Below, piece after piece: positions 16,044 through 33,472 of a stretch of DNA of 64,000 nucleotides. The notes under the pieces were generated by a model that made no database searches, was not told the origin of the DNA, and saw nothing but the letters and a program-made list of their open reading frames with translations. This DNA is from Bacillus sp. N1-1. Lineage in GTDB: Bacteria; Bacillota; Bacilli; Bacillales; Guptibacillaceae. Position numbers and translations under genes: made by a program. Position 1 is the stretch's first letter. Each line of letters starts with the position of its first letter. Location of the stretch: positions 4,030,001 through 4,094,000 of the forward strand of contig NZ_CP046564.1 of assembly GCF_009818105.1 (NCBI RefSeq), read 5' to 3'.

Positions 16044-16147
16044 TTGAAAACCTTGCTAAGGTTCGTTTCCTATCCTATGGAAAACTGGACATTTTCAAGT
16101 TTAATACAAATGGATATATGCATGATCCCTGAATCAATAAATAGAAT

Positions 16148-16176
16148 TTTCCAAACCTCTTAAAATAGGTTATACT
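16148..16176 (+). promoter_or_regulatory. Predicted sigma-A-type promoter of the beta-propeller operon
   Basis: TTTCCA (16148-16153), a 17-bp spacer and TATACT (16171-16176). The predicted start of transcription falls near 16183, so the SinR-like operator at 16186-16201 would overlap the initial transcribed region, a classic repression position. Confidence 0.5.
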
Positions 16177-16185
16177 AAACTTAAA

Positions 16186-16201
16186 GTTCTTTAAAAAGAA
16201 C
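16186..16201. promoter_or_regulatory. SinR-like operator O1 (beta-propeller operon)
   Basis: GTTCTTTAAAAAGAAC: two perfect inverted GTTCTTT half-sites separated by 2 bp. GTTCTYT is the known SinR half-site of B. subtilis. The site sits just after a predicted -10 box and 28 bp before the TTG start of the operon's first gene. Six further sites with the same 7-2-7 design lie in the eps-like cluster. Confidence 0.72.
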
Positions 16202-16228
16202 AAAACTTCAATATACGAAGGTGATTTC

Positions 16229-17950
16229 TTGGAAACCAACGATCGGTTAGTAAACTTCGGTATCATGTGTGACGCTGTTTCAATTGAACCTTGGCAATAT
16301 AAATGTATTATGAATCTCGTAAAGAGAAAGAACATACAATTGCGTGTTATTCTATTGACAGAAAACGAAGAAAAACAAGGGTCAAACCAGACCAAACCCT
16401 CAAATATCTTTGCTAAATTCAACAAGAAAAAGACTCAACAACTTAATATCATTGACCACTTTTCCGATGCTCAAGTCCTTCGATTAGCTGGAGATAACCT
16501 TTTCTTAGATGCTATGAAATTAGAAGGTTTTCAATTAGATTTTGTTCTTTATTTCGGTACAAAACAGGTTGATGAACGTTTATTAGAAGTGCCTAAATAC
16601 GGTTTTTGGTCCTTTCAGTACAACAACTCCGCAAACATAAATGATGACTCTTCCTTGTTTTGGAAAATGCATTTAAAAGATCAGCTCATTCCTATCTCAC
16701 TTATTAAGATCGGTTCGAATCAAAACGCTCACCTTGTATTAAAACATGGCACCTTTGGCGTTATAAAGGAGTCGCAGCGAGCGAATCAAGCAAACTATCA
16801 ATCTAGCATCGCTGAGTGGCCTTCATTAGTGTATAAAAGTCTGATGATTAATGGAATGCACGCTCTTCAACATGAAAAGAATGGATTGCGCAATATGAAT
16901 TATTCAACACCTACTATGTTAACAACCATTCATTTTAAATGCTCCCTCTTATTACAAATAGGTAAAAAGTTAAGAGATAAACTGTTTCTCTATGAATATT
17001 GGAACGTAGGAATCATTAACAAGCCTATTCATGAGCTTTTAAATAATAAACATCCAAAGATCGAATGGTTAAACGATCAAAAGGAAGTATTTTTTGCCGA
17101 TCCTTTTGGCTATGAAGACAAAAATGGGGTTCATCTTATTATGGAGGAGTTAGATCATAAAGTTGTAAAAGGATTTATTACGACGACTCATATTCAGCAG
17201 AGGACACCATCTGAAGCCGTTTATCATCACGGAGTCATCACTTCTGATAGCCATTTATCTTATCCTTTTATCCTTCAATACAAGGGTACAACCTATTGTA
17301 TTCCGGAAAATTCTGAGTCCAATAAAGTGATCTTGTATCAATTAAACCCTGATTCAAAAAGCTGGGTGAAAACGAAAGTGCTTTTAGAAAACTTCCCAGG
17401 AGTCGATTCTACCGTTATTTATTATCAAAATAAGTGGTGGCTATTTTGTACGAAAGCAGGCTCAACTCCACAAAGTGCTAATAACGAACTTCACATTTTT
17501 TATAGTGATGACTTATTTGGTGAGTGGATGCCACATATGCTTAATCCCGTTAAGGTTGATATTCGAGCGGCTAGACCAGCGGGCACGCCTTTCATTCGTC
17601 AAGGCGTTTTATACCGCCCCGCTCAGGATTGCTCAGAAACATATGGCGGAAAAGTAACGTTTAATCAAGTAATCAACCTTACTCCAACACAGTTTCAAGA
17701 AGAAATCGTTTCAGAACTTGAACCTGATCGCACTAGTTCATTCCCACATGGTTTACACACAGTTTCCTCTATCGGTGATTTAACGCTCATTGATGGGAAA
17801 CGAAAAGAATATCGATTTCATCATTTCATCAAGAAGCTCTATCGATTCAAACCTAGTAAACAACTCAACAAGAAGTCGCTCGCTATTGCTCCACAAGTTT
17901 TTTCTAGCAATTGGACGAATCGTAAAAACTCTTTGAAGCGAGTGAAATAA
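16229..17950 (+). CDS. GINT1-like beta-propeller protein with formyltransferase-like N-terminus
   Basis: The 573-aa protein has an N-terminal region (residues 1-180) resembling a formyltransferase-like Rossmann fold (FGIMCDAVSIEPWQYKCIMN; LPVPKYGFWSF-type passage near residue 127). Its C-terminal half is of the glucosamine inositolphosphorylceramide transferase 1 N-terminal family: EVFFADPFGYEDKNGVHLIM, SYPFILQYKGTTYCIPE, WWLFCTKAG and RPAGTPFIRQGVLYRPAQDC, the repeated blades of a five-bladed propeller. Bacterial members are found in surface-polysaccharide loci but lack a defined reaction. Start: TTG at 16229 behind GAAGGTGA. It is the first gene of a three-gene operon controlled by a SinR-like site, hence likely tied to exopolysaccharide. 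Confidence 0.75.
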   Translation: METNDRLVNFGIMCDAVSIEPWQYKCIMNLVKRKNIQLRVILLTENEEKQGSNQTKPSNIFAKFNKKKTQQLNIIDHFSDAQVLRLAGDNLFLDAMKLEGFQLDFVLYFGTKQVDERLLEVPKYGFWSFQYNNSANINDDSSLFWKMHLKDQLIPISLIKIGSNQNAHLVLKHGTFGVIKESQRANQANYQSSIAEWPSLVYKSLMINGMHALQHEKNGLRNMNYSTPTMLTTIHFKCSLLLQIGKKLRDKLFLYEYWNVGIINKPIHELLNNKHPKIEWLNDQKEVFFADPFGYEDKNGVHLIMEELDHKVVKGFITTTHIQQRTPSEAVYHHGVITSDSHLSYPFILQYKGTTYCIPENSESNKVILYQLNPDSKSWVKTKVLLENFPGVDSTVIYYQNKWWLFCTKAGSTPQSANNELHIFYSDDLFGEWMPHMLNPVKVDIRAARPAGTPFIRQGVLYRPAQDCSETYGGKVTFNQVINLTPTQFQEEIVSELEPDRTSSFPHGLHTVSSIGDLTLIDGKRKEYRFHHFIKKLYRFKPSKQLNKKSLAIAPQVFSSNWTNRKNSLKRVK

Positions 17951-17965
17951 GGTGGAGGGAACGTT

Positions 17966-18952
17966 ATGGAAAAAATAAGCATACGGTCATTGACAGAGGA
18001 AGACTTCCCATCCTTTCAGTTAATGTACTTGGAAATATTCAAAATGGAGATGTCATTCGATTTCTTCAAATGGAAATATATCGACAATCCAAATAACGTT
18101 GAAACAGCACTCTCTGTCTATGGGGCGTTCCATCAGAATGAATTAATTGGTGCAAGAGCTATTTTTTCATCGAGAGTTATCTACAATGGGGAACAATTTC
18201 TTGCAGCTCAAACTGGCGACACGATGGTCAAAGAAAACTGGAGAGGAAAAGGCGTGTTTAAACAGCTTAACCAAGCTGTACTAGATGATCTAACAGAAAA
18301 GGGATATAAACTCATTTTTAACTTTCCAAATGAAAATTCTGCACCAGGGAATCTTAAGTTGGGATGGAAGTTAGTTGACTATGGAACGAATCACTTCAAA
18401 ATCCATCCTTCTTTCTCTTTTGGAAAAAGGGAGAAAGGAAAAACCCTCACAAAAAAGGGGTATGTGGTTGAAACAACAGAACTTGATAATAAAAAAGTGA
18501 CTGACTTTATTTCCTCTACTTTGGATGGAACAATCTATCAAAACAGAGAAGCAAACTATTTACTTTGGAAATATGTCCAAAAGCCTGGAGAATCCTATTG
18601 GCCAATCGTTATTAAGCAAAAGGGTGAAATTGTCGCTCTCTTCATTTGCAAACCGTCTTCAATTAAATTCCTTAAGAAAACCCACATTGTCGATTATGTG
18701 ATTAAAGGTGGATTTAATTATACAGTCGCCCTCGATCTGGTCTCTTCATATCTTAATCGGAATGGAGTATCGATTATTCAAACCGTCGAATTTAGTGACC
18801 ATGCTTTTAAAAAGTCACTTCAGCGGAATCATTTTATGAAAAGAAAGCAAAAAGCCAACTTTATGGTTAGACTTCTCGATGATCAAATGAGTTCTCATTT
18901 CTACCAATCAAATCATTGGCATATTGCACTAGGAGATACAGATTTTATATAG
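17966..18952 (+). CDS. GNAT-family N-acetyltransferase
   Basis: A 328-aa protein with a complete GNAT fold in the first half. The acetyl-CoA loop reads QTGDTMVKENWRGKGVFKQL around residues 75-95 (R/Q-x-x-G-x-G/A type), followed by FPNENSAPGNLKLGW. The second half resembles Eis-like two-domain GNATs or a FemAB-type polysaccharide acyltransferase. It starts 16 bp after the upstream gene behind GGAGGG, so it is cotranscribed. It probably acetylates an amino sugar or precursor of the same surface polymer; the substrate is not deducible. Confidence 0.82.
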   Translation: MEKISIRSLTEEDFPSFQLMYLEIFKMEMSFDFFKWKYIDNPNNVETALSVYGAFHQNELIGARAIFSSRVIYNGEQFLAAQTGDTMVKENWRGKGVFKQLNQAVLDDLTEKGYKLIFNFPNENSAPGNLKLGWKLVDYGTNHFKIHPSFSFGKREKGKTLTKKGYVVETTELDNKKVTDFISSTLDGTIYQNREANYLLWKYVQKPGESYWPIVIKQKGEIVALFICKPSSIKFLKKTHIVDYVIKGGFNYTVALDLVSSYLNRNGVSIIQTVEFSDHAFKKSLQRNHFMKRKQKANFMVRLLDDQMSSHFYQSNHWHIALGDTDFI

Positions 18953-19035
18953 AATTATTATCTAGTAAGTCCGCAAATGAAGACTTCAAATTTATTCGGG
19001 AATGAACTCTCCCTCTATAAGGAGATAAACGCTAA

Positions 19036-20040
19036 ATGACGAACAGAGTAATCTCCATGATCGCAATGATCTTATCTTTAATTGCCATTACCTTATGCTT
19101 ATACGTTTGGATTAATGTTGAAGATAATGCCTTAACACAAGTGAACACTCAACCTTCAAACTCAGTAAGCAACGAGAATCCACAAGCACTTCTAATTTCA
19201 GATTTTGGAGCAGTTGGAGACGGAAAAACAGACGATTCAAAGGCAATCCAAGAGGCTATTGATTATGCACAGGAGAGTGCAGTGGGGAGTGTACACTTAA
19301 CCGGAAATCGAAACTATTTAATTAAATCCGGACTTACGCTAAAAGAAGGAACTGAATTAAAGCTTGATCGCAATTCAAAAATTCTAGTCGACGGAAACTT
19401 TAGAGTCGTTACTTTAGAAAAGAGCTCATCGATCAGCGGGGGTACAATTGAGGTTGTGAATCCCATCTTTCAGTCCGACGTTCTTTACCTTGATGGAAAA
19501 TATGAATATTACGGTATTTGGAACACAACGCAAGTCAATAATGTTCGTTTGATTAATTCATCGGGATCCTTAAAAGGGACGGCTCTATCCTTATTTGCTG
19601 GTGGCTCTTCTCATCAGATTACATTTGTGAATTTTGATACCATTGGCATTTCAGGGTTTGAAACAGGGCTGAAATTAGAGACAGTCGATCCTGGAGATGG
19701 GTCATACAGTTGGATTAACGGAAATACATTTGAGAATTTTTCAATGGAACAGTGCCTTACGTTTATTGAATTAATAGGGGATGTAACGGTACCAAATGAA
19801 TCTTCCGGAAATGTCTTTGAAAACCTTCAAATTCAACTCGGCACGAAAACTGAAAATGTATTAGTGGTCGATGGTTCAGCTAATACATTTGAAGGCGTCA
19901 TATGGGACACACAGCTTCTTAGTCAACAAGCTCCTGTTATTAGACTTTCTGAACAATCCAAAGGCAATCAAGTGATGACAAACCTTGAATCTAGCTATAT
20001 TGAAGACAATGGTATTCAAAATCAGGTGTCGCCTAAATGA
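19036..20040 (+). CDS. Membrane-anchored pectate-lyase-like beta-helix protein
   Basis: A 334-aa protein with an N-terminal membrane segment (VISMIAMILSLIAITLCLYVWI, residues 5-26) that works as a signal anchor. It is followed by the pectate lyase superfamily opening ISDFGAVGDGKTDDSKAIQEAI near residue 54 and many short beta-helix turns. Family members degrade or bind extracellular polysaccharide. It is the last gene of the operon, ending in a strong bidirectional terminator. It likely modifies, trims or holds the polymer made by the eps-like cluster (inference). Confidence 0.82.
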   Translation: MTNRVISMIAMILSLIAITLCLYVWINVEDNALTQVNTQPSNSVSNENPQALLISDFGAVGDGKTDDSKAIQEAIDYAQESAVGSVHLTGNRNYLIKSGLTLKEGTELKLDRNSKILVDGNFRVVTLEKSSSISGGTIEVVNPIFQSDVLYLDGKYEYYGIWNTTQVNNVRLINSSGSLKGTALSLFAGGSSHQITFVNFDTIGISGFETGLKLETVDPGDGSYSWINGNTFENFSMEQCLTFIELIGDVTVPNESSGNVFENLQIQLGTKTENVLVVDGSANTFEGVIWDTQLLSQQAPVIRLSEQSKGNQVMTNLESSYIEDNGIQNQVSPK

Positions 20041-20075
20041 AAGAAAGAGGAGCTGCTGCCAGCTCCTCTTTCTTT
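20040..20075. terminator. Bidirectional rho-independent terminator
   Basis: 15-bp perfect stem AAAGAAAGAGGAGCT / AGCTCCTCTTTCTTT with a 6-nt loop, lying between the convergent beta-helix gene and ugd. The A/T flanks provide a U-run in both directions, so it ends the plus-strand operon and the minus-strand eps-like operon. Confidence 0.9.
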
Positions 20076-20083
20076 TGCATTAA

Positions 20084-21496
20084 CTATAGTGATACGGTTT
20101 GAGGGCTTGGACTGACACGATGTTCTGTTGAAGTGCCTACGCCTTCATACCTATATCCATGAGCAGAAAGATTTAACTCTCTCAAAAAATTCCGTGTATC
20201 TAAAAGATAAGGATGACTCATCTGAGCAATTGTCAATTCCCAGTTAAGATACTTGTATTCTTCCCAATGTGTTAATAAAACCACGCCATCAGCTTGATCA
20301 AATACATCTTTCCCCGAAGCACAGTAGTCTACTTTCAAATCTCCATTAAGATTTTGGAACATCTTTGCACCTTGAGGATCATGAGCTTGAATTGTCGCTC
20401 CTTTTTCAATCAGCTTTTCGATAATATAAGAGGCTTGAGTATTTCGTGCATCATCGGTATTCGGTTTGAAAGTTAATCCTAGGATACCAATTTTTCGACC
20501 TTGCAACGATCCAAGCGCTCGTTCAACTTTATCCACACAATAGTGATGCATTTCTTTATTCGAGGCAATAGCAGATTTGACAATAGACAGCTCTTGATTC
20601 TCAACTTGACTCGTATAGAGAAATTCGGCTGTATCCTTTGGAAAACAACTGCCACTCCATCCACAGGAAACATCGAGAAATTTATCGCCAATTCTTGAAT
20701 CCATTCCCATCCCTTTGGCGACATCTAACGCATTCGCTCCTAGAGCATCACTTAATCTTGCAACTTCATTAATATAGCTGATCTTCACTGCTAGAAAAGC
20801 ATTTGAAGCGTATTTAATCATTTCCGCACTTCGAATATCTGTTTCATAATAGGTTGGCAAGGGAGTCAACTTTTTATCGCGAATATCTACTACAGAAGAA
20901 AGAATCCCATAATTTTCTCTCGCTACGATACTCGTATAAAGCTCTCTCATCATGTCGCTAGCTAACTGATTATCACTTCCAACTACCACTCGATCTGGAT
21001 AGAAAACATCTTCAACGGCATAGCCTTCTCTTAAAAACTCAGGATTACTCACAATCGCAAAATGCTCATTGTTCTTAAGTGTTGAGTACTCTTCAATGAT
21101 TGAGGCCACAAGATTGGTTGTGCCTACTGGAACTGTTGATTTATTTACAATGACTGTAAACTGAAAGGGATTTAGGTGCTTCGCAATCTTCTGAGCAGCT
21201 AGTTCAATGTAGGTTAAATCAACATTACCATTCTCTTTTGAAGGAGTGCCTACGCCAATAAAGACGATATCTGAATGTCTGACACTTGCATAAGAAGTTG
21301 ACGCAAATAATGTTTTTCCTATGGTCTTAGAAATTAATAGTTCAAGAACTGGTTCGTAAATTGGACTTCTACCACTGGTAAGGACCTCTACTTTCGCAGG
21401 ATCGATATCAATAATGGTAGTTTTATAACCTAATGCAGCAAAAGCAGTTCCTGTGACACTACCAACATACCCGGCACCGATACAAGTAATATTCAT
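20084..21496 (-). CDS. ugd: UDP-glucose 6-dehydrogenase
   Basis: Oxidises UDP-glucose to UDP-glucuronate with two NAD+. The 470-aa protein has the N-terminal dinucleotide site CIGAGYVGSVTGTAFA, VNKSTVPVGT, and the catalytic cysteine motif GWSGSCFPKDT near residue 283, followed by GLTFKPNTDDARNTQA. It overlaps the upstream UDP-xylose synthase gene by 4 bp (ATGA), so the pair is translationally coupled. With galU at 5.7 kb, the window encodes the route glucose-1-P to UDP-glucose to UDP-glucuronate to UDP-xylose. Confidence 0.95.
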   Translation of the reverse strand: MNITCIGAGYVGSVTGTAFAALGYKTTIIDIDPAKVEVLTSGRSPIYEPVLELLISKTIGKTLFASTSYASVRHSDIVFIGVGTPSKENGNVDLTYIELAAQKIAKHLNPFQFTVIVNKSTVPVGTTNLVASIIEEYSTLKNNEHFAIVSNPEFLREGYAVEDVFYPDRVVVGSDNQLASDMMRELYTSIVARENYGILSSVVDIRDKKLTPLPTYYETDIRSAEMIKYASNAFLAVKISYINEVARLSDALGANALDVAKGMGMDSRIGDKFLDVSCGWSGSCFPKDTAEFLYTSQVENQELSIVKSAIASNKEMHHYCVDKVERALGSLQGRKIGILGLTFKPNTDDARNTQASYIIEKLIEKGATIQAHDPQGAKMFQNLNGDLKVDYCASGKDVFDQADGVVLLTHWEEYKYLNWELTIAQMSHPYLLDTRNFLRELNLSAHGYRYEGVGTSTEHRVSPSPQTVSL

Positions 21497-22479
21497 AATT
21501 GAACAACCTTTTTAGTGACTTGCTCTTCTTTAAGCGAATAAGCTGCGATTGTTTTCATTAGGCCGTTTTCTAGAGAAGTGCGAGGCTCCCAGCCAATAAA
21601 CTTTTTCGCCTTATCAATAACCGGTCGTCTAACTTTCGGGTCGTCTTTCGGTAAAGAAGAAAAGGTAATCTCACTTGGTGAAGAAGTTAATTCCTTCACT
21701 AGCCTGGCTACTTCTAAAATCGTATATTCTTTCGGATTACCAAGATTAATAATTTCTCCAGCTGTTTGTTCGCTATTCATGACGAGAGTTAACGCCGTTA
21801 TCATATCATCCACATAGCAGAAAGATCTGGTCTGACTACCGTCTCCGTAGACTGTCAAATCTTGACCAGCTAGCGCTTGAGTGACAAAGTTTGAAATCAC
21901 TCGCCCATCATCATTTCGTAATCCAGCCGAATACGTATTAAACAGTCGAACCACTTTAGCTTGTACGTGATACTGATGGAAATATTCATAGCAGTAAACC
22001 TCACCGAGACGTTTTGATTCATCATAACAAGCTCTTGGCCCCCACGTATTTACATTTCCACGATAAGACTCGGGCTGAGGGTGAACAGTTGGATCCCCAT
22101 AGGCTTCACTTGTGCTAGTAAATAATAATGAAGCTTTTTCTCGCCTAGCTAAATCAAGCATATTTCGAGTACCATTTGTATTCACCGCAATCGTATCGAT
22201 CGGCGATTTTTGATAGAATCGTGGCGAGGCAGGTGAAGCTAAATGATAAACTTGATGGATCCCCTGCAATAGGTCATGTTCGATAAGAACCGGGTTTGTC
22301 ACATCAAATCGAAGTAGCGTAAATGCTGGATGATCTAATAGTGCTCTGACATTCTCTTCAGACCCTGTTGAAAAATTATCAATCCCAATCACTTCACAAC
22401 CACCTTGAATTAACTCATGAGCTAAATGCGATCCTAGGAATCCGGCTACTCCTGAAATAACGATCTTTTTCATGTTCAA
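21493..22479 (-). CDS. UDP-glucuronate decarboxylase (UDP-xylose synthase) family
   Basis: Extended SDR enzyme of 328 aa. It shows GVAGFLGSHLAHELI (NAD site), the UXS signature YHLASPASPRFYQKSPI, SEAYGDP, the catalytic YDESK, DDGRVISNFVTQAL and YGDGSQTRSFCYVDD. These features separate UDP-xylose synthases from 4-epimerases. It converts UDP-glucuronate to UDP-xylose in the cytoplasm. Coupled to ugd by a 4-bp overlap and 34 bp downstream of the 47-aa ORF, it belongs to a sub-operon preceded by a SinR-like site. UDP-4-keto-pentose as the end product cannot be excluded. Confidence 0.87.
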   Translation of the reverse strand: MNMKKIVISGVAGFLGSHLAHELIQGGCEVIGIDNFSTGSEENVRALLDHPAFTLLRFDVTNPVLIEHDLLQGIHQVYHLASPASPRFYQKSPIDTIAVNTNGTRNMLDLARREKASLLFTSTSEAYGDPTVHPQPESYRGNVNTWGPRACYDESKRLGEVYCYEYFHQYHVQAKVVRLFNTYSAGLRNDDGRVISNFVTQALAGQDLTVYGDGSQTRSFCYVDDMITALTLVMNSEQTAGEIINLGNPKEYTILEVARLVKELTSSPSEITFSSLPKDDPKVRRPVIDKAKKFIGWEPRTSLENGLMKTIAAYSLKEEQVTKKVVQL

Positions 22480-22513
22480 CCAATCCTTCCCTTTAATGCG
22501 AGAATTTGATTCA

Positions 22514-22657
22514 TTAACGTACTCTTTTTTGTAGGATTTCTCTTAACTCCGCAACGACTGTTTGGACCGTAGACTTTTCTTCATCACTTCCATCAAATTG
22601 ATGAACAATCGCAAGAATTTCTTTTGCTAGATGCTCTGATTCTGAATAACTACTCAT
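22514..22657 (-). CDS. Small ORF, 47-aa acidic helical protein of unknown function
   Basis: A 47-codon frame starting at ATG 22657, with GAGAGGTG 5 bp upstream and a stop at 22514. The product (starts MSSYSESEHLAKEILAIV, ends ELREILQKRVR) looks fully helical, with acidic and basic faces and no membrane segment. It sits between the SinR-like gene and the UDP-xylose synthase gene, with a SinR-like operator 19 bp before its start. No resemblance to SinI or Spo0E motifs is visible. A small regulator or antagonist role is possible from position only. Confidence 0.6.
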   Translation of the reverse strand: MSSYSESEHLAKEILAIVHQFDGSDEEKSTVQTVVAELREILQKRVR

Positions 22658-22675
22658 TGCACACCTCTCGAAATA

Positions 22676-22691
22676 ATTCTTTATAAAGAAC
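22676..22691. promoter_or_regulatory. SinR-like operator O2 (47-aa ORF, uxs, ugd)
   Basis: ATTCTTTATAAAGAAC: 7-2-7 palindrome differing from the consensus at one outer base. It lies between the SinR-like gene's stop and the small ORF. It could control an internal promoter for the small ORF and the UDP-sugar genes, or stop readthrough. Confidence 0.65.
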
Positions 22692-22708
22692 AACTGCGCA
22701 TAGCCTAT

Positions 22709-22918
22709 TTATTTCAGTGACGTGAGTGGACGTACAAATTGATCAATATCCACATCTAATGCGTTAGAGATTTGAATTAAGATTCGTAAGCTAGGGTTAT
22801 TGATTTTCCCCCGCTCGAGTACACTTAAGTATGACTTTGAGACACCTGATTTTTGTGAAAGTTCGTCAAGAGTCATTTCCTTCATTAATCTTAACTCTCT
22901 AATTTGTTTACAGTTCAT
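22709..22918 (-). CDS. SinR-like XRE-family DNA-binding protein, 69 aa
   Basis: A helix-turn-helix protein that is almost only the DNA-binding domain: IRELRLMKEMTLDELSQKSG, then recognition helix GVSKSYLSVLERGKINNPSL, then ALDVDIDQFV. The GV-KSYLS--ER--NPS pattern is that of SinR. SinR itself is about 111 aa; this protein lacks the C-terminal Sin multimerisation domain. Seven palindromic sites made of the SinR half-site lie in the window, so it is the best candidate regulator of the eps-like genes (inference). It is encoded within the cluster, between a glycosyltransferase gene and the 47-aa ORF. Confidence 0.88.
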   Translation of the reverse strand: MNCKQIRELRLMKEMTLDELSQKSGVSKSYLSVLERGKINNPSLRILIQISNALDVDIDQFVRPLTSLK

Positions 22919-22994
22919 TTATAATTTCTCCTTATAAACCACCTGATTTCATTTCATTAAGAAAACAGAAACATTTTAAAGGACTCAAATACAC

Positions 22995-24245: not shown

Positions 24246-24269
24246 GTATGAACCTCCTCATATGAATCG

Positions 24270-26105: not shown

Positions 26106-26141
26106 ACAACTCCTTTCATTCCTAAGGAAAACATCAATTTT

Positions 26142-26157
26142 GTTCCTAATAAAGAAC
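26142..26157. promoter_or_regulatory. SinR-like operator O3 (upstream of epsC-type gene)
   Basis: GTTCCTAATAAAGAAC: a perfect AAAGAAC half-site and a GTTCCTA half-site 2 bp apart, in the 78-bp gap between the aminotransferase and dehydratase genes. Confidence 0.6.
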
Positions 26158-26183
26158 GACAGATGGTAATAGATTCAACACAA

Positions 26184-27359
26184 TTACTTAGTAGCTAGCG
26201 TTGGTCTCTTCACCTCTACTGCATCCTTCATAACTTGAATCACTCTCATTTGCTCCTCTACCGTCATTCCCGTACCAGAAGGGAGGCAGATGCCTTTTCT
26301 AAACAAATCTTCCGAAATGCTCGTCCCATCAGCCACTTGATAAAAATCGCACTCTTTAAACAAAGGTTGTAGGTGCAGAGGTTTCCAAACAGGTCTTGCT
26401 TCAATATTCTCTAGCTCAAGTGCTTCAATCACTTTCCATGGTGGTAAGCCAATCTTTTCTTCTTCAATAGTAAGCGTGGTTAACCATCGGTTGTGTCTAC
26501 TTCCCTCATACTCTTTCATAAATGATAAGCCGTCCAGGTAACCAAGTTCTTCTTCATAGGTTCGGAAAATGCTTCTTTTCTTTTGCACTCGATTTTCAAT
26601 CGCTTCAAGCTGTGCAACTCCTATACCAGCCAAAAGATTACTCATCCGATAGTTATAGCCCTTCTCACTATGCTGATAGTGCAAAGCTTGATCTCTTGCC
26701 TGGGTTGATAAAAATCTGGCTTTTTCGATGCTTTTAACGTCGTTTGAGACAAGCATACCTCCACCCGACGTGGTAATGATTTTATTCCCATTGAAAGAAA
26801 ACACCCCATAGTTTCCAAAACTACCGCTCATTTTCCCTTTATAGGTCGAACCTAGTGATTCTGCTGCATCCTCTACCACAGGAACGTCATATTCCTTGCA
26901 GATACTTAAGAGTTCATCCATCTTAGCACTTTGTCCATATAAATTAACCACAATAACTGCTTTAGGTAGCTTTCCGATAAAAGCAGCCTTTTTAAGTGCT
27001 TTTCGAAGAGATTGTGGGCACATGTTCCAGGTGTCTGGCTCTGAATCGATAAAAACAGGCTTTGCTCCTTCATATAATATTGGATTCGCACTGGCTACAA
27101 ACGTAAGTGAGGAGCAAAATACGATATCACCTACAGTGATTCCAATGAGTCGAAGTGCTAGATGAATAGCCGCAGTTCCGGAATTGACGGCAAGAGCTTT
27201 TTTTACATGAATGTATTTTTCGATATCCGCTTCAAATCGATCCACATGTGGACCAAGCGGGGCGATCCAATTAGACGCAAACGCTTGTTTCAAATACGTT
27301 TGTTCATTTCCTGTCATGTGCGGGGGTGATAGATAGATTCTCTTTTGTGCTAGTTTCAT
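26184..27359 (-). CDS. epsN: DegT/DnrJ-family PLP aminotransferase, EpsN/PglE type
   Basis: A 391-aa pyridoxal-phosphate enzyme that aminates a 4-keto sugar nucleotide. Motifs: LALRLIGITVGDIVFCSSLT, PVVEDAAESLGSTYKGKMSG, and the PLP lysine in SFNGNKIITTSGGGM near residue 193. I use the ATG at 27359, preceded by GGAGG at 6 bp spacing; an upstream frame to 27416 would overlap the previous gene by 41 bp without a better ribosome site. Together with the dehydratase downstream it makes UDP-4-amino-4,6-dideoxy-GlcNAc, a bacillosamine precursor (family knowledge). Confidence 0.93.
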   Translation of the reverse strand: MKLAQKRIYLSPPHMTGNEQTYLKQAFASNWIAPLGPHVDRFEADIEKYIHVKKALAVNSGTAAIHLALRLIGITVGDIVFCSSLTFVASANPILYEGAKPVFIDSEPDTWNMCPQSLRKALKKAAFIGKLPKAVIVVNLYGQSAKMDELLSICKEYDVPVVEDAAESLGSTYKGKMSGSFGNYGVFSFNGNKIITTSGGGMLVSNDVKSIEKARFLSTQARDQALHYQHSEKGYNYRMSNLLAGIGVAQLEAIENRVQKKRSIFRTYEEELGYLDGLSFMKEYEGSRHNRWLTTLTIEEEKIGLPPWKVIEALELENIEARPVWKPLHLQPLFKECDFYQVADGTSISEDLFRKGICLPSGTGMTVEEQMRVIQVMKDAVEVKRPTLATK

Positions 27360-27375
27360 AAAAACCTCCACTCTC

Positions 27376-27999
27376 TTACTTATTGTAAGACGTAACTGTC
27401 TTCCCCTGCCTTTCAATATCTAGATCCAACATCATCTCTCGTTGAACTTCGACCATGCCTTCTCGTTTAAACACTTTCAAAATCGTCTTTCCTATAATAA
27501 TCAGATCCAGCTTCATCGACCTTTTCTTCACATACTCTACATCGTAAGCAAGCTTTCGATCCCATGTTAAACGATTTCTTCCAGAAATCTGTGCAAGTCC
27601 AGTTATTCCTGGTTTAACTGAATGACGACTGTTTTCTTCTGACGTGTAATAAGGTAGATAATGAACGAGAAGAGGTCGAGGTCCGACAAGGCTCATATCT
27701 CCCCTAATGACGTTCCATAATTGAGGAAGCTCGTCAATACTCGTCTTTCGAATAAACCTTCCAAATTTCGTAATGCGTTTGGAATCTGGTAATAGATTTC
27801 CTCTATCATCTTTCGTGTCCGACATTGATCGAAACTTATAAACGGTAAATACGTTGCACTGATAGCCAATTCGTTCTTGCTTGAATAATACGGGGGAACC
27901 ATATTTTACTTTCACGAGCAAAGCTGTCGAACCCCAGATCGGAGATAGAAGCAACAAGCCTGTTATACTGACGACAAGATCTAGCAACCGTTTCATCAT
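27376..27999 (-). CDS. epsL: Undecaprenyl-phosphate sugar-1-phosphate transferase, EpsL/PglC type
   Basis: Initiating phosphoglycosyl transferase of 207 aa. It has one N-terminal reentrant membrane helix (LLDLVVSITGLLLLSPIW), FKQERIGYQ, VYKFRSM, the catalytic Asp-Glu in TSIDELPQLWNV, and SLVGPRPLLVHYLPYY and RHSVKPGITGLAQISGRN. It loads the first sugar phosphate onto undecaprenyl phosphate at the inner membrane. The small PglC-like size and the nearby EpsC/EpsN/EpsM genes suggest N,N'-diacetylbacillosamine-1-P as substrate. Two adjacent ATGs exist; the second (27996) has better spacing from AGGAGG. Confidence 0.93.
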   Translation of the reverse strand: MMKRLLDLVVSITGLLLLSPIWGSTALLVKVKYGSPVLFKQERIGYQCNVFTVYKFRSMSDTKDDRGNLLPDSKRITKFGRFIRKTSIDELPQLWNVIRGDMSLVGPRPLLVHYLPYYTSEENSRHSVKPGITGLAQISGRNRLTWDRKLAYDVEYVKKRSMKLDLIIIGKTILKVFKREGMVEVQREMMLDLDIERQGKTVTSYNK

Positions 28000-28013
28000 A
28001 TCCTCCTTCCGTC

Positions 28014-28029
28014 ATTCTTAATAACGAAC
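28014..28029. promoter_or_regulatory. Degenerate SinR-like operator O4 (upstream of sugar transferase)
   Basis: ATTCTTAATAACGAAC keeps the 7-2-7 layout with three differences from the consensus, in the 38-bp gap before the EpsL-type gene. It is weaker than the other sites and could be chance. Confidence 0.35.
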
Positions 28030-28037
28030 ATCCATGT

Positions 28038-29087
28038 CTATAAACACTTCAGATACTCTTCTAGCGTATGATCAATCATCTTATTTACTGTAAAATTTTC
28101 CTCTACTCGTTTACGCCCATTATGAACAAAGTTCTCTGAAAGATGGCGATGTAACGTCATCGTTACGATTTTCTCACAATAGGCTTCTACTTGATGATCA
28201 GGAATTAAATACCCTGTTTCCTCATGCTGAATCGCTTCTTTTATCCCACCTCGATCAATTGAAATAACCGGGGTTCCTACAGCCATAGCCTCAAGTATAA
28301 CCATTGGGAATACCTCAGTATGTGAGGTAAGGAGCAGCAAGTCCATTTCCTTAATAAATCTTTCTGGTTGATTGACCGCTCCGACCATTTTTACTTTATG
28401 AGAAAGGCCGAGTGATGAGATCTTATTCACTATCTTCTCATTCTCTGGTCCTTCTCCGGCAATATGGAAAGTAAGCGATGACATTTCTTTTAATTTGTTC
28501 GCAATTTCCAGAAATAGTGTGTGATTTTTCTCTTCCGACAATCTCGCAAGGATCCCTACATGAAAGGCTTCACTTTTCTCTTTCGTTTGGAAGCGAAACT
28601 GTTCCAAATCTACCCCGTTATAGATCGTTTGAATTTTGTTAGCCTGTACACCTAGTGAAATGAGCTTATCTTTCTCATACTGACTAACAGCTATAATTTG
28701 ATCAATAAACCGATTCATTAAATAAACAAACAGTGGCCCTTTCGATTCCAGAACGGTTTGATTGTGTTTCGTATAGATAATCTTGAAAGGGATTCGGCTC
28801 GTTCTTTTAATGGCGATCGCATAGAGAGCCATGCGTAAGCTATTTGCGTGAATGACATTAATTTTTTGTTTAATGATTGTGCTTTTTATTTTTCTTATAT
28901 TATCTAGATGGTTTTTCCGACTAATTTCTGTGTAGTTTTGTTTGTGCTTTAATTTACTTACAAGATCGCCCGTGGCAGCGGCTGTATAAATGTGCAAATC
29001 AGGATGAGCTAGCGTATTTTCTAATTTACAAAAGTAACTTTCAGCTCCTCCTGTCACTAACTTATCCGTCATCATAAGAACATTCAT
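28038..29087 (-). CDS. GT4 glycosyltransferase of the eps-like cluster
   Basis: GT-B enzyme of 349 aa. It starts NVLMMTDKLVTGGAESYFCKLE, with the glycine-rich acceptor loop, and has VGILARLSEEKNHTLFLEIA, HIAGEGPENEKI and TSHTEVFPMVILEAMAVGTPVI with the E-x7-E donor motif. It resembles EpsF-type transferases. Its start overlaps the Wzy-like gene by 4 bp, so translation is coupled. It extends the repeat unit on the lipid carrier; sugar and linkage are unknown. Confidence 0.9.
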   Translation of the reverse strand: MNVLMMTDKLVTGGAESYFCKLENTLAHPDLHIYTAAATGDLVSKLKHKQNYTEISRKNHLDNIRKIKSTIIKQKINVIHANSLRMALYAIAIKRTSRIPFKIIYTKHNQTVLESKGPLFVYLMNRFIDQIIAVSQYEKDKLISLGVQANKIQTIYNGVDLEQFRFQTKEKSEAFHVGILARLSEEKNHTLFLEIANKLKEMSSLTFHIAGEGPENEKIVNKISSLGLSHKVKMVGAVNQPERFIKEMDLLLLTSHTEVFPMVILEAMAVGTPVISIDRGGIKEAIQHEETGYLIPDHQVEAYCEKIVTMTLHRHLSENFVHNGRKRVEENFTVNKMIDHTLEEYLKCL

Positions 29088-30358
29088 TGGATGGGATCAC
29101 TTCCTTTCATCATAGTATGTAGCACTGGTTTATGCCCTTTCGTTAGACATAAGGCTTCACGCTTACTTTCTTTCTGATCAGCATATAAATAAGAAGACAA
29201 GATCGCTAAGTAGAGAAAGAACATATCATTAATAATGAGCGATAAGGATAGCATCTGGAGCATAAACCCTATGAATGTTAAAAAGAGATAAGGCTTTCGA
29301 CGGTACATCTTGCTTTCAACTAGTTGAAACACGAGTAGAAACGCAAAGATTAAATAAAAGAACAAGCCAATTAGCCCAGATTCCGATAGAATATCAAGGA
29401 ACGTATTGTGAACATAGTGACTATCACCGAAGAAATAGAAATTGTAATCAGGATAATTAAAAGCACCTATTCCAAAAATCTGATGAGTCGAAAAGAATTC
29501 CCACGCACGAGCCCAGAGATCAAACCTGCCGCTCCCTCCGTCCTGTGAAAAATCTTCGACACGTGATTCCAAAATGCCATAGAAGTCAAATTTCAATTGG
29601 ACAATCGCTAGATAAGCTAGAATCGATAGCATAACAACGGAACCAAGTAAGAGCTTTGCCTGCTGTAATGGACGGTTCATCAAGAGGTAAAGAAGAAATA
29701 CAACCACCATTGCTAGCAAGCCACCTCTTGAGAAGGTTAGCAAACTTGTCATGATAGAAAGTAGTAAACCGACTTTATGCCACCACCTCTTGCCATTACA
29801 TAGAAAATACGTAAAGAAAATCGTGTTATAAAAAATATAAAAGTTCGGATCTTGTAGAACGCCTATTAAACGCGGATAATCTCGATCGAAGAGGACTCCG
29901 TAAGAGATGACCCCATCTCCCTCAAAAGAAAAGTGATGTTGTTTCAAACCAATCACATATAACCCTAAACTAATGAGGTTAAATAATATCCCAGATATGC
30001 CGAGTGCTTTCTCAATTAATTTTTGACTAGATCCACTCAAGATGTCTTTAATCACAATGTAACAAGCCAAATATAAGATGACGCCAAGTAAAATCCGTAG
30101 ACTTGAAATGGCGTGAAGAGAGAATGCCCCTGAATACACATAAGCAAAGTAGAAAAGGAAAAGAAACACTTCAAATAATTGAAATGACCGAAACCGAAAG
30201 CTACTAAGGTGAAAGACGATAAACAGGATACAGAACAGCATATAGGGTTTTAATGCAAAGCCAAAATAAAGATTGTATTTCCCCATCGTAACGAGTAAGA
30301 AAAGCAGGCTTAGCATAACGAGCGAAACACGTGGTCGCAGGTTATTTTGATTATCCAT
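29084..30358 (-). CDS. O-antigen ligase/Wzy-like polysaccharide polymerase
   Basis: A polytopic membrane protein of 424 aa with about ten to twelve hydrophobic helices. It carries the Wzy/WaaL-type periplasmic region GSGRFDLWARAWEFFSTHQIFGIG, then DSHYVHNTFLDILSESG near residue 300, the typical signature of the O-antigen ligase superfamily. It polymerises flipped repeat units outside the membrane. It overlaps the flippase gene by 8 bp and the glycosyltransferase gene by 4 bp. In this context polymerase is more likely than ligase. Confidence 0.87.
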   Translation of the reverse strand: MDNQNNLRPRVSLVMLSLLFLLVTMGKYNLYFGFALKPYMLFCILFIVFHLSSFRFRSFQLFEVFLFLFYFAYVYSGAFSLHAISSLRILLGVILYLACYIVIKDILSGSSQKLIEKALGISGILFNLISLGLYVIGLKQHHFSFEGDGVISYGVLFDRDYPRLIGVLQDPNFYIFYNTIFFTYFLCNGKRWWHKVGLLLSIMTSLLTFSRGGLLAMVVVFLLYLLMNRPLQQAKLLLGSVVMLSILAYLAIVQLKFDFYGILESRVEDFSQDGGSGRFDLWARAWEFFSTHQIFGIGAFNYPDYNFYFFGDSHYVHNTFLDILSESGLIGLFFYLIFAFLLVFQLVESKMYRRKPYLFLTFIGFMLQMLSLSLIINDMFFLYLAILSSYLYADQKESKREALCLTKGHKPVLHTMMKGSDPIQ

Positions 30359-31808
30359 GCTTCACTTCCTTTGCTGCTTGCCGTTTCATCAATTGTTTAC
30401 CCCTTACTTGCTCTATTATTTTTCTTGATAGGTCCTTATCTAGCAGCACCAGACCTATCAATATGAAGAATCCGATCAGTGTTGCCACAATTGGCATCGC
30501 TGAAAGTAGTTTATTTATAATCAGTAAAGAACAAAGAAACAAACTCGCATATGGGACAACTGCTTTTTTCAGAAGCGTGACACGCTTTGGTGTGCAACTA
30601 ATATAGCCAATAAAAGAAATCGTTTCTAACAGTAACCCTGCATATGCCGCTCCTAAAATACCATACCCTCGACTTAGTACGATATAAAGAACGCCCCCAC
30701 AAACTAAGGCAACACCCTGGACAATTGTTCGTTTATACTGCATTGCCTGGGTTGTTAATCCATCAGCAAGAGCAATATTCATCGATTGCAGGGCTAACAT
30801 AATCGCTAATACTTTCAATGGTTCGGATGCAGGAAGCCAGCTTGGTCCAAATAGTAACTCTACGATGATGTCAGATAAGAAAAACAGTGGGAAAGCCATC
30901 ATCATCCCCATGATACTCATCATCTTGATTTGCATCACATTTAACCTGGTGTGCGCCTTGATATTGCCTTCATGAAATTGCCGATACATAACAGGGTAAT
31001 AAGCACCTGCAATGACAAAAGGAACTTGCTGTAGCGCTTGTGGAATACGGTACGCTACTGCAAACAACCCTACCTGTGCTAAAGAAATGGTTTGTTCAAG
31101 AAGGATTGGACCCAATTGAGGCGTTAATACAAATAGAAATCCAGCAATCGTAAACGGCCATATTTCTTTTAAAAGACCTTTATGAAATGAACTTCGGAAA
31201 ACAAACGTCATATTCTTCCAAACGAGGTAGAGCGCAAACAGTCCAGCTATTAAATAAGAGCATCCATATAACGTATAGATGAATACGGGGTTAATTGAGA
31301 ATAGCATTCCTAATAAAACAACTGAAACAAGTAAGATGGAAGAAGTGATCCGAATGAGACCCGTTAAATGCATCTTCTCAATGACTTGAAAATAAGCCGT
31401 TCCAATGCTTTGCAGTGTTAACCCACTCACCATTGGAATTAATAAGTAATACGCTGCTTGCACCAATTCAGGATGATCAGAATAAAACAGGTGAATAATC
31501 CCAAAACCAATGATCAAGGTACCTCCTAAAAGGAGAAGCCTTAGTTTTAAATAAGATGTGATGACCACTGGGATATTTGCAATATTTGCTGACCCTTCTC
31601 GTACGACGATGCGACTTAAACCAGCATCCGTAAAATAGCCCATGATCATGGCGAAAGCAAGTACAACGCTAAACAAACCGTAATGATAGGACTCAAGATA
31701 GGAAGCAAGAACGATAAGGGATATAGCATTTAAACCACTTGCAAAAACAGTGCTATAAAACAGATGAAGGATATTTTTTATAATTGAATTTCGTTTAACA
31801 GTTCCCAT
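30351..31808 (-). CDS. Oligosaccharide flippase (Wzx/EpsK type)
   Basis: Polytopic membrane protein of 485 aa with twelve to fourteen helices, of the polysaccharide biosynthesis (MATE/MVF) superfamily. The N-terminal segment NILHLFYSTVFASGLNAISLIVLA and GYFTDAGLSRIVVREGS are typical for Wzx proteins. It flips undecaprenyl-linked repeat units to the outer face. It lies between the BY-kinase-like gene (27 bp upstream) and the polymerase gene (8-bp overlap), the usual order of Wzx/Wzy-dependent pathways. Confidence 0.92.
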   Translation of the reverse strand: MGTVKRNSIIKNILHLFYSTVFASGLNAISLIVLASYLESYHYGLFSVVLAFAMIMGYFTDAGLSRIVVREGSANIANIPVVITSYLKLRLLLLGGTLIIGFGIIHLFYSDHPELVQAAYYLLIPMVSGLTLQSIGTAYFQVIEKMHLTGLIRITSSILLVSVVLLGMLFSINPVFIYTLYGCSYLIAGLFALYLVWKNMTFVFRSSFHKGLLKEIWPFTIAGFLFVLTPQLGPILLEQTISLAQVGLFAVAYRIPQALQQVPFVIAGAYYPVMYRQFHEGNIKAHTRLNVMQIKMMSIMGMMMAFPLFFLSDIIVELLFGPSWLPASEPLKVLAIMLALQSMNIALADGLTTQAMQYKRTIVQGVALVCGGVLYIVLSRGYGILGAAYAGLLLETISFIGYISCTPKRVTLLKKAVVPYASLFLCSLLIINKLLSAMPIVATLIGFFILIGLVLLDKDLSRKIIEQVRGKQLMKRQAAKEVKHG

Positions 31809-31835
31809 CAGGATTCACCCTATGCGTAACAAAAT

Positions 31836-32453
31836 TTATGTTTTTTGATAAATCACGCCAACGATCGGTTTGTCAGCTTTCTTATATGCTTCAACAATGT
31901 GCTTTATTTCTTCCATCTTATCTTTCTTTTCCTTCACCATCAGAAGAGCACCGTCACATGTCGTTAATAAGATGGAAAGTGGAGGTGAGTGCGGCGGCGT
32001 TTGGATAAGAACAAGATCATACATCGTTCGCCATTTGGTTAACTCTTTTTCGTAGTTCTTTGAAAGTCTACGACCAGCTACCTCTCCTTCTGATCCCGCT
32101 GCTAATAATGAAAGTCCCTCTACTCCTGTTTGTCTCGTTAACTGCTCTGATGGAATCCCTCTCAATAGAAGATCGGCTAATCCCGTCTGAGATGGCATTC
32201 GAAACCACTCATGTACGGTAGGACATTCGAAATCACTATCAACAAGCAGGACATTTTTCCCCCGATCCGCCATTGCTTTGGCTACTTCACTCGTTACGAT
32301 CGATCGACTTCTTTCCTTTCCAGGTGAGGTAACCATCAGTATGAGGGACTGTCGCGTTAGCGTTTGCTCGATTTTTGAACAGAGCGCATCCATCTGACTA
32401 TGAAAATGCTTATTCTTTTGGATTGATTCAGTTACTAGTGTTTGATTGGGCAT
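31836..32453 (-). CDS. BY-kinase-like (EpsB/CapB) protein with degenerate active site
   Basis: A 205-aa homologue of bacterial tyrosine kinases that work with Wzz-like modulators. It starts at ATG 32453, with AGGAGGT 7 bp upstream. The fold is recognisable: MVTSPGKERSRS (P-loop region), VLLVDSDFECPTVHEWF (Walker A'), GLADLLLRG, LSLLAAGS, YDLVLIQTPP (Walker B). However, the P-loop normally reads PGEGKST: here the Gly-Lys is Ser-Arg. The Walker B aspartate (IDTPP) is Gln, and no tyrosine cluster ends the protein (YQKT). It is probably a pseudo-kinase that still pairs with the Wzz-like partner, whose gene overlaps it by 26 bp. Confidence 0.88.
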   Translation of the reverse strand: MPNQTLVTESIQKNKHFHSQMDALCSKIEQTLTRQSLILMVTSPGKERSRSIVTSEVAKAMADRGKNVLLVDSDFECPTVHEWFRMPSQTGLADLLLRGIPSEQLTRQTGVEGLSLLAAGSEGEVAGRRLSKNYEKELTKWRTMYDLVLIQTPPHSPPLSILLTTCDGALLMVKEKKDKMEEIKHIVEAYKKADKPIVGVIYQKT

Positions 32454-33174
32454 GAATCTTACCTCCTTTCTTATTGAATACCTCACGCTTTCGACGCATC
32501 TTCCTATTCAAACGTGCGTATTTTTTATCATTTAACGTTAGCTCACCAATAACAGGTAATCCAAGTGACCATTCAATCTCTTTCGCATCCTGTAACGTAT
32601 CATCAAAGTAGTCACGTAGCATCGCTAAACCAATCCCTACAAGTAGTCCAACCGTTAACCCAATTGCCATGTTGAGTGTTGAACTCCCAACTTCCTTAGA
32701 TCCACTATCGTTCTTACTTAACACTTCGACATCGCGTATGTTTAACAATTCACCCATTTTGTCAACAGATGCCGTAGCCGTTGCTTGGGCAATTAATTTG
32801 GCTCTGTCTGGATCCAAGTCTTGGACTGAAATGGTGATAATTTGTGAATTCTGGCTATTGGTAACGGCTATACTCTCTGAAAGGTCTTCCTCTGTCACCT
32901 TCATATCGCGCTTGACCTGATCAAAAACGACGGAGCTACTAATCAAGTCCATCGAAGAAGCCATTAAGCGACTCACTCTCTGCGTATCCGCTACCGTCTC
33001 TTCATCATTTAACGAACCAATAAAGATAAACTCCTGCGCTTCATAAGTCGGTTCAATAAAATAAAGCGTTGCTACAGCCGAAATTCCAAAAAACACAATG
33101 GCTGTTACCAGGATAGTTAGAAATCTTTTTTTCATAATCGACAAAAATCGTTTTAAATCCATTCTCTCGTCCAT
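32428..33174 (-). CDS. Wzz-like chain-length/kinase-modulator protein (EpsA/CapA type)
   Basis: A 248-aa polysaccharide co-polymerase. N-terminal membrane helix (FLTILVTAIVFFGISAVATLYF), extracellular domain, then a second helix (MAIGLTVGLLVGIGLAML, near residue 180) and a basic cytoplasmic tail (LNRKMRRKREVFNKKGG). It controls polymer length and normally activates the partner BY-kinase. Start chosen at ATG 33174 with GGAGGTAACG directly before it; a GTG at 33186 overlaps that ribosome site. It is the first gene of the eps-like operon, behind three SinR-like operators. Confidence 0.92.
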   Translation of the reverse strand: MDERMDLKRFLSIMKKRFLTILVTAIVFFGISAVATLYFIEPTYEAQEFIFIGSLNDEETVADTQRVSRLMASSMDLISSSVVFDQVKRDMKVTEEDLSESIAVTNSQNSQIITISVQDLDPDRAKLIAQATATASVDKMGELLNIRDVEVLSKNDSGSKEVGSSTLNMAIGLTVGLLVGIGLAMLRDYFDDTLQDAKEIEWSLGLPVIGELTLNDKKYARLNRKMRRKREVFNKKGGKIHAQSNTSN

Positions 33175-33221
33175 CGTTACCTCCACAACAATAGAATTTC
33201 AATTAGTAAATCCCCTTGAAT

Positions 33222-33237
33222 GTTCACTATAAAGAAC
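33222..33237. promoter_or_regulatory. SinR-like operator O5 (eps promoter region)
   Basis: GTTCACTATAAAGAAC, 48 bp upstream of the Wzz-like start: one exact AAAGAAC half-site and one with two changes, 2-bp spacer. It is the nearest of three sites in this 298-bp promoter region. Confidence 0.65.
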
Positions 33238-33297
33238 ACATCTGCAGACACGCTATTTTTATCAGCTATCCCCTGGTGAGTCACTTGAGCCCCTTTT

Positions 33298-33313
33298 GTT
33301 CTTTTTAAAGAAT
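33298..33313. promoter_or_regulatory. SinR-like operator O6 (eps promoter region)
   Basis: GTTCTTTTTAAAGAAT: exact GTTCTTT half-site and AAAGAAT, 2-bp spacer, 124 bp upstream of the Wzz-like start. Its centre lies 76 bp from that of O5. Confidence 0.68.
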
Positions 33314-33432
33314 GTACTTAAATAGTAAATCTTTATCAATTGATTGAAAACCGTTAAATACCACCAAAAAGAACCCTTTCGACACGATTTTCTACGTATC
33401 CCTAACGATATCACGTTTTCTCTTACATTTGC

Positions 33433-33448
33433 GTTCATTATATAGAAC
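33433..33448. promoter_or_regulatory. SinR-like operator O7 (eps promoter region)
   Basis: GTTCATTATATAGAAC: palindrome with one change in each half-site, 2-bp spacer, close to the 3' end of the acetyltransferase gene. Three spaced sites would allow cooperative or looped repression of the eps promoter. Confidence 0.6.
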
Positions 33449-33472
33449 AAAATTGTAACTAGAGACACAAGA

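Follow-up and report, generated by a model that had tools for sequence, protein, structure and literature searches.

Probable SinR-type operators at the polysaccharide gene clusters of Bacillus sp. N1-1, a sinI riboswitch and a short SinR relative

Seven similar 16-base palindromes occur in an eps-like gene cluster of Bacillus sp. N1-1, and they raise the question of which protein reads them and how far its control extends. The window, that is, the whole stretch of 64,000 nucleotides analyzed here, covers positions 4030001-4094000 of a 4.497 Mb single-contig genome. It includes a plus-strand operon (16229-20040) for a GINT1_N protein, a GNAT acetyltransferase and a beta-helix protein. Encoded in the opposite direction are a UGDH, a UXS-like protein, a 47-amino acid (aa) open reading frame (ORF), a 69-aa protein and a Wzx/Wzy-type eps-like operon that extends up to an EpsA/Wzz-like gene at 33186. 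The original prediction took the palindromes for SinR-type operators of a local, multi-promoter biofilm regulon that includes the GINT1-like operon and is read by the 69-aa protein. It is very probable that these 16-base palindromes are bound by SinR, the biofilm repressor.

All seven sites were recovered at the predicted coordinates in a mismatch scan of the window. They are listed below in window positions, with mismatches counted against the consensus GTTCTTTATAAAGAAC.

16186..16201, no strand, SinR-type operator GTTCTTTAAAAAGAAC; 1 mismatch; -43 from the GINT1-like start and 9 bp past a predicted -10
22676..22691, no strand, SinR-type operator ATTCTTTATAAAGAAC; 1 mismatch; 18 bp 5' of the 47-aa ORF (from coordinates)
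26142..26157, no strand, SinR-type operator 5' of the EpsC-like gene; 2 mismatches; -52 from its start (offset table)
28014..28029, no strand, weak SinR-type operator 5' of the phosphoglycosyltransferase gene; 3 mismatches; about 14 bp from its start (from coordinates)
33222..33237, no strand, SinR-type operator; 2 mismatches; -51 from the EpsA-like (Wzz) start
33298..33313, no strand, SinR-type operator; 2 mismatches; -127 from the same start, overlapping a predicted -10
33433..33448, no strand, SinR-type operator; 2 mismatches; -262 from the same start, 3 bp past a predicted -10

The window contains nine matches with at most 3 mismatches, compared with a mean of 1.02 (maximum 4) in 100 shuffles, and thus the sites are real. 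The two further matches (30677 and 52026, 3 mismatches each) are both within ORFs. Seven of the nine are in gaps, which account for 9.6% of the window (binomial p 2.3e-6). Here coding sequence comprises the 69-aa gene and every ORF of 120 aa or longer, and the smaller ORFs that cover three of the sites are treated as spurious (16075-16425, 116 aa, over the site at 16186, and 33262-33468, 68 aa, over those at 33298 and 33433). The predicted placement in gaps 5' of cluster genes therefore stands, with one correction: the site at 22676 is downstream of the stop codon of the 69-aa gene, ahead of the 47-aa ORF.

The half-site of Bacillus subtilis SinR is GTTCTYT (PMC3163267). SinR binds an inverted repeat of two half-sites (TTTGTTCTCTAAAGAGAACTTA) with a dissociation constant of 300 nM, and this repeat is an approximately tenfold better target than a single or tandem site (PMC3163267). 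The window sites share the 16-base 7-2-7 layout and the half-site of this repeat, as expected for a SinR regulon, which bears out their description as SinR-type operators. GTTC is their most constant part, nearly invariant across the intergenic sites compared (11 own and 87 from other loci), each picked at no more than 2 mismatches to the consensus.

A genome-wide scan had been proposed as a check, and its matches are concentrated at polysaccharide genes. We identified 24 sites with at most 2 mismatches, versus 6 with the reversed pattern. Twelve are within 77 kb (4046186-4122908) that carry three polysaccharide clusters: six in the window cluster (A) and six, outside the window, at two further Wzz/Wzc clusters, B (4094-4102 kb) and C (4104-4123 kb). 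Clusters B and C (L037 and L038; G000:4094001-4128000) are just right of the window, and one of them includes Rml and mannose-guanylyltransferase-like genes, by inspection. Two weaker dyads (4206890 and 4207074, 3 mismatches) were found upstream of the gene for SinR2, one of the two SinR proteins of this genome (see below); the SinR2 dyad GTTCTGTTTACAGAAC is 55 bp upstream. The regulon is thus not local, as sites are present at clusters B and C, at the SinR2 promoter and in the whole genus.

Of the other 12 genomic sites, ten are within called ORFs (two of only 63 and 52 aa, which may be spurious) and two are intergenic (3113633 and 1450452). The best match outside the clusters (3347182, 1 mismatch) is within a 477-aa ORF and was read as coding sequence rather than as an operator; the identical 16-mer occurs in G002 and G004 (genome scans, comparing the 16 bases and not gene context). 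No clear link to matrix genes was apparent for 3113633 (between fxsA- and pyk-like genes) or 1579242. The dyad at 1450452 (L041:2453) is 150 bp 5' of a 54-aa ORF with a sub-threshold Pfam match to Flp pilin. Its neighbors are Tad-like by inspection, and G002 and G003 contain the identical 16-mer (again compared apart from gene context). A narrow literature search, with few subscription journals, found no paper treating SinR together with Flp pilin. The dyad at 3286885 (L046), within a called 52-aa ORF, is 189 bp 5' of a gene for a peptidoglycan-binding/3D-domain protein and may mark an autolysin-type target.

Related genomes carry the motif as well. All 14 genomes of the genus are above the reversed control (252 versus 64 matches, summed). 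In loci of other genomes that were chosen by protein rather than by motif, at no more than 2 mismatches, 10/11 Wzz genes have a site within -400..+60, compared with 0/11 in the reversed control and 8/245 for other long ORFs. Sites accompany 9/12 of the genes nearest to the 69-aa protein and 11/27 of those nearest to SinR, with none in the reversed controls. These loci are not all independent, as several are from one family. The protein-chosen set omits L029 (same genome as L169), and L172-L184, picked by motif, were counted apart; the gap-bias analysis pooled both sets plus L029. Sites are also present in the EpsN-EpsC interval of L180 and L186 and, in L156, 40 bp inside the called EpsC ORF, and sites with 3 mismatches occur at or just 5' of the phosphoglycosyltransferase gene in L180 and L182. 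In a comparison of 49 genomes from the order, the median motif excess is 6 in the 31 with a SinI-domain protein versus 1.5 in the 18 without (Mann-Whitney p 0.002). The relationship is loose, with exceptions on both sides.

The matches could instead be AT-rich palindromes that arose by chance, or RNA hairpins, a view that draws on the approximately 8 of 24 genomic sites that are within long ORFs far from the clusters, a number near the control count of 6. This view is contradicted by the enrichment, the gap bias and the recurrence 5' of Wzz across families, and we give it next to no weight.

The positions of three sites (16186, 33298 and 33433) coincide with the -10/start region of promoter matches (9-of-12) that have the correct strand, all identified by consensus match only:

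16148..16176, plus strand, promoter-like TTTCCA-17-TATACT by the operator at 16186
33311..33339, minus strand, promoter-like TTGATA-17-TACATT
33452..33481, minus strand, promoter-like GTTACA-18-TACAAT

At the 87 sites in other genomes, the -10 of 24 promoter matches ends at -12..+6 of the site, versus 7.1 expected, where the expectation is taken from neighboring offsets and a few sites are counted twice via overlapping matches. Promoter matches inside the site (24 versus 6.0) were not counted, since the dyad is itself similar to a -10. Thus, as is typical of a SinR regulon, operators are found at the (consensus-predicted) eps promoter, and the sites are placed where a repressor could act. Their presence at several predicted cluster promoters agrees with the multi-promoter control that was proposed.

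We identified two proteins that have both a SinR-type helix-turn-helix (HTH) and a SinI-type domain, SinR (111 aa, G000:4205978) and SinR2 (113 aa, G000:4207145). SinI-domain ORFs are present at 4205769, 4206734 and 2195342, so the genome encodes both partners of a SinR/SinI switch. The ORF at 2195342 (frame 70 aa) is away from the sinIR locus and is presumably SlrA-like, by position only. The recognition helix reads KSYLSSIER in both SinRs and KSYLSVLER in the 69-aa protein. Residue 33 is Ser in both SinRs, as in B. subtilis SinR, and Val in the 69-aa protein; this position (Ser in SinR, Lys in SlrR) has been discussed as a specificity position (PMC3163267).

The first candidate for the reader was the 69-aa protein, as the main, cluster-specific repressor. 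It has a SinR-type HTH and occupies the same place in a syntenic cassette of another family, where sites are also found. We nevertheless consider this role unlikely, given Val at position 33 and the lack of an operator of its own (no site within -400..+60 of its start). In addition, the B. subtilis fragment SinR(1-69) is by itself monomeric in solution, and in crystals it packs like 434 Cro (PMC3163267). Further, operators are present in all 13 congeners, in which we found no orthologue of the 69-aa protein, only matches of 40-47% in frames of at least 111 aa (E <=1e-10) and, in two of the 13, no match at all. Because these 13 congeners have operators without an orthologue found, SinR and SinR2 appear to be the likelier readers of the sites.

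Reading of the dyads by some other DNA-binding protein (SlrR-like or another XRE protein) would be in keeping with the further XRE proteins of the genome and with the additional SinR-like genes at eps loci of relatives. Half-site and spacing match SinR (PMC3163267), and both close homologues in the genome retain the SinR recognition helix, which makes such a reader improbable. Longer SinR-like genes (114-121 aa) occur in congeners (L178:6647-7012, L174 near 15720, and L070). Those of L174 and L178 are beside an apiosidase-like gene, in a region with SinR-type sites. PF08671, the SinI-type domain, was not matched in the three longer genes scanned (L178, L068 and L070).

How SinI itself may be controlled is suggested by a cyclic di-GMP (c-di-GMP) riboswitch. 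RNA family scans, which covered 16 sources in one round and 7 out of 20 in another, identified a c-di-GMP-I riboswitch (RF01051) 5' of sinI at G000:4205624-4205722 on the plus strand (L039:2625-2723). It is directly 5' of sinI in 14/14 genus members (the own locus and 13 congener loci, L096-L108). It is also present in L029 and L031, and absent from L030. Among six sinR loci scanned, it is 5' of sinI-sinR in L157, and none was found in L158, L159, L161, L162 or L164. In the 14 riboswitch-sinI leaders, CCTCCAG (5' flank), CTGG (3' flank) and the Shine-Dalgarno sequence AGGNGG are invariant. The predicted unbound fold pairs the Shine-Dalgarno sequence with CCTCC, with a z-score of -0.49, i.e., the fold is not unusually stable. 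This arrangement suggests that c-di-GMP frees the Shine-Dalgarno sequence and raises SinI. A putative c-di-GMP riboswitch 5' of sinI was predicted earlier in B. methanolicus (PMC4342826), and in B. thuringiensis sinI is reported to be up at high c-di-GMP (PMC7793685).

What, then, is the 69-aa protein? It is an HTH_3 protein (Pfam) without the SinI-type domain PF08671; its best NCBIfam match is SlrR, to the HTH part only and far below the cut-off. By position, the gene is read with the eps-like operon. A truncated SinR pseudogene was considered and rejected, as no SinI-domain remnant was seen in three frames past the stop (read by eye) and the short form occurs in a syntenic cassette elsewhere. 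In a survey of the order, at least 35/397 genomes, the own included, have a match (E <=1e-12), scored on at most 15 candidates per genome so that misses are possible. Relatives by the 69-aa protein are mostly from Bacillaceae, and frame lengths form a short (69-95 aa) and a longer (106-144 aa) group. Of 13 short forms outside the own genome, 12 adjoin sinR and are convergent to it (the twelfth, L166, judged from coordinates), and one, in G293, is in the same place of a Wzc-to-UGDH cassette (47-74% identity) that belongs to another family and also has sites. The window and G293 proteins pair in the tree (99/97), within a side clade that is separate from canonical SinR; this tree has 62 columns, weak inner support and a long-branch warning for the 69-aa row. 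The trees exclude fragmentary sequences, congeners that are near-identical and some XRE proteins. In four separately found Halobacillus loci, an HTH-only relative is called in 3/4 (72-87 aa; the frame is uncalled in L034), and sites with at most 3 mismatches are just upstream in 4/4.

The short gene convergent to sinR is found in several genera (L157-L165, L167, L168 and, by coordinates, L166). Just upstream of it is an ORF of 102-149 aa in eight loci: L158, L159, L160, L162, L163, L164, L167 and L171, the last with a 106-aa SinR-like gene. The 102-149 aa ORF is PilZ-like by eye only, and the four examples scanned (L158, L159, L163 and L171) had no Pfam match above cut-off. A similarly narrow literature search, with few subscription journals, found no paper that, judged by its title or the opening of its abstract, concerned short SinR proteins in eps cassettes.

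The 69-aa protein may act in negative feedback, compete with SinR or have another target. One version, which retains the SinR part of the model, is that it occupies operators without repressing and so keeps eps on by positive feedback. Because its gene is within the operon and the SinI-type domain is absent, the protein should be produced whenever the operon is active and should not respond to SinI. The same facts are equally compatible with negative feedback, and we regard the competitor version as rather doubtful. More broadly, and tentatively, HTH-only SinR relatives could be a recurrent type of Bacillales regulator that SinI cannot touch, encoded either convergent to sinR or in a transferable eps cassette. 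They would set a second, local threshold on SinR operators, with c-di-GMP entering via the sinI riboswitch.

The genes of the window cluster are as follows.

16229..17950, plus strand, GINT1_N-domain protein, 573 aa (PF24793, domain match)
17966..18952, plus strand, GNAT acetyltransferase, 328 aa (domain match)
19036..20040, plus strand, pectate-lyase-like beta-helix protein, 334 aa (domain match)
20084..21496, minus strand, UDP-glucose/GDP-mannose dehydrogenase family protein, 470 aa (domain match)
21493..22479, minus strand, NAD-dependent sugar epimerase/decarboxylase, 328 aa, which we take to be UXS-like (74% identical protein in L156)
22514..22657, minus strand, 47-aa ORF with the operator at 22676 on one side and the UXS-like gene on the other (ORF call)
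22709..22918, minus strand, 69-aa HTH-only SinR-like protein without SinI domain (domain and family matches, alignment, tree)
22995..24245, minus strand, glycosyltransferase family 4 (domain match)
24270..26105, minus strand, EpsC-like nucleotide-sugar dehydratase/epimerase, 611 aa (family match)
26184..27416, minus strand, EpsN-like aminotransferase (family match)
27376..27999, minus strand, phosphoglycosyltransferase, EpsL-like (by inspection)
28038..29087, minus strand, glycosyltransferase (by inspection)
29084..30358, minus strand, Wzy-like polymerase (by inspection)
30351..31808, minus strand, Wzx-like flippase (by inspection)
31836..32486, minus strand, EpsB/Wzc-like tyrosine kinase (match below family cut-off)
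32428..33186, minus strand, EpsA/Wzz-like chain-length protein, first gene of the eps-like operon (domain and family matches)

We infer a sugar-transfer or polymer-modifying role for the GINT1_N protein. The GINT1-like 573-aa protein is present in 3/81 genomes, the own genome counted. In the other two (L185 and L186) its gene is within a Wzz-Wzc-Wzx-Wzy operon with SinR-type sites 5' of Wzz, and no site was found within -400..+60 of the GINT1-like start itself. Because the gene is within the eps operon in both, its link to polysaccharide synthesis has support independent of the motif. Together with the site just past a predicted -10, this supports the inclusion of the GINT1-like/GNAT/beta-helix operon in the regulon. 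Similar beta-helix proteins are beside eps genes in L185 and L180.

From the sites, their positions and spread, both SinR proteins, SinI and the riboswitch, all read from sequence, we infer binding, repression, the direction of the switch and a role for the 69-aa protein as follows. At the promoters of the eps-like, internal eps, UXS and GINT1-like genes, SinR and/or SinR2 would bind the overlying GTTCTYT inverted repeats and keep these genes off. SinI would sequester SinR and thus release the cluster genes together with the two neighboring polysaccharide clusters. Via the riboswitch, c-di-GMP probably sets SinI output, favoring SinI synthesis and hence matrix. The 69-aa protein would most likely feed back on some operators, beyond the reach of SinI. 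Taken as a whole, we consider it likely that these are operators of a SinR/SinI switch that controls several polysaccharide clusters, with a feedback role for the 69-aa protein.

Several observations weigh against this explanation. Genome-wide, the strict pattern GTTCTN6AGAAC is no commoner than in the control (18 versus 18), so that the excess comes from the longer AT-rich dyad together with site position. Overall, the promoter scan gives 31 matches, fewer than the 52 in shuffles, and at the 11 own sites the overlap with a -10 is only 3 versus 1.1 expected. The site 5' of EpsC is not general (3/10 EpsC genes at no more than 2 mismatches, 5/10 at no more than 3). Among the sites at the neighboring clusters, 4107107 falls close to the end of a 362-aa ORF, upstream of the gene that follows, and 4122893 is within a 54-aa ORF. 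No site is directly 5' of the cluster B Wzz gene; the cluster B site is between LytR- and CpsB-like genes. No site was found upstream of the 111-aa SinR, and that of SinR2 appears only at 3 mismatches. Across the order, the 18 genomes without a SinI domain keep a small, non-significant motif excess (106 versus 91), and several with it have no excess (e.g., G041, G042, G043, G045, G053 and G054). Two B. subtilis features are lacking: PF12389 (TasA, a hallmark of that species) was not matched anywhere in the genome, and no epsC RNA (EAR) was found in the window, L037 or L038, i.e., in any of the three clusters. The RNA family scan did identify the epsC RNA in L159, L162 and L164. SinR targets vary between species (PMC3909190), and for this reason we treat the lack of the second target, tapA-sipW-tasA, as a difference of content, not of mechanism.

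For an organism other than B. subtilis, the analysis thus provides a specific map of the operators of a biofilm-type regulon, which covers three polysaccharide clusters, the GINT1-like operon and possibly a Tad-type pilus. It also places a c-di-GMP riboswitch upstream of SinI across a whole genus. Short SinR relatives, with eps cassettes or beside sinR, are a candidate layer that could explain separate tuning of one cluster. The kind of control is known; this variant stands out by how broad its target set is, by the additional short SinR relative and by a sinI riboswitch shared across the genus.

The closest known system is SinR/SinI-epsA-O of B. subtilis, with which this one shares the GTTCTYT half-site, the 7-2-7 repeat and several sites at the eps promoter (PMC3163267), as well as SinR and SinI encoded in its own genome. 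Unlike in B. subtilis, sites are also 5' of internal eps genes and the GINT1-like operon and at two further polysaccharide clusters. Two SinR proteins are encoded, a TasA family protein is missing from the genome, and the clusters contain no epsC RNA. The 69-aa protein has the length and domain content of the B. subtilis laboratory construct SinR(1-69) (PMC3163267), but it is a natural gene with Val at position 33, in a side clade beside canonical SinR. The riboswitch resembles that predicted in B. methanolicus in being an RF01051 element 5' of sinI. Compared with that report (PMC4342826), it differs in its presence in 14/14 genus genomes, in a leader that overlaps the Shine-Dalgarno sequence and in standing beside a mapped set of SinR-type operators.

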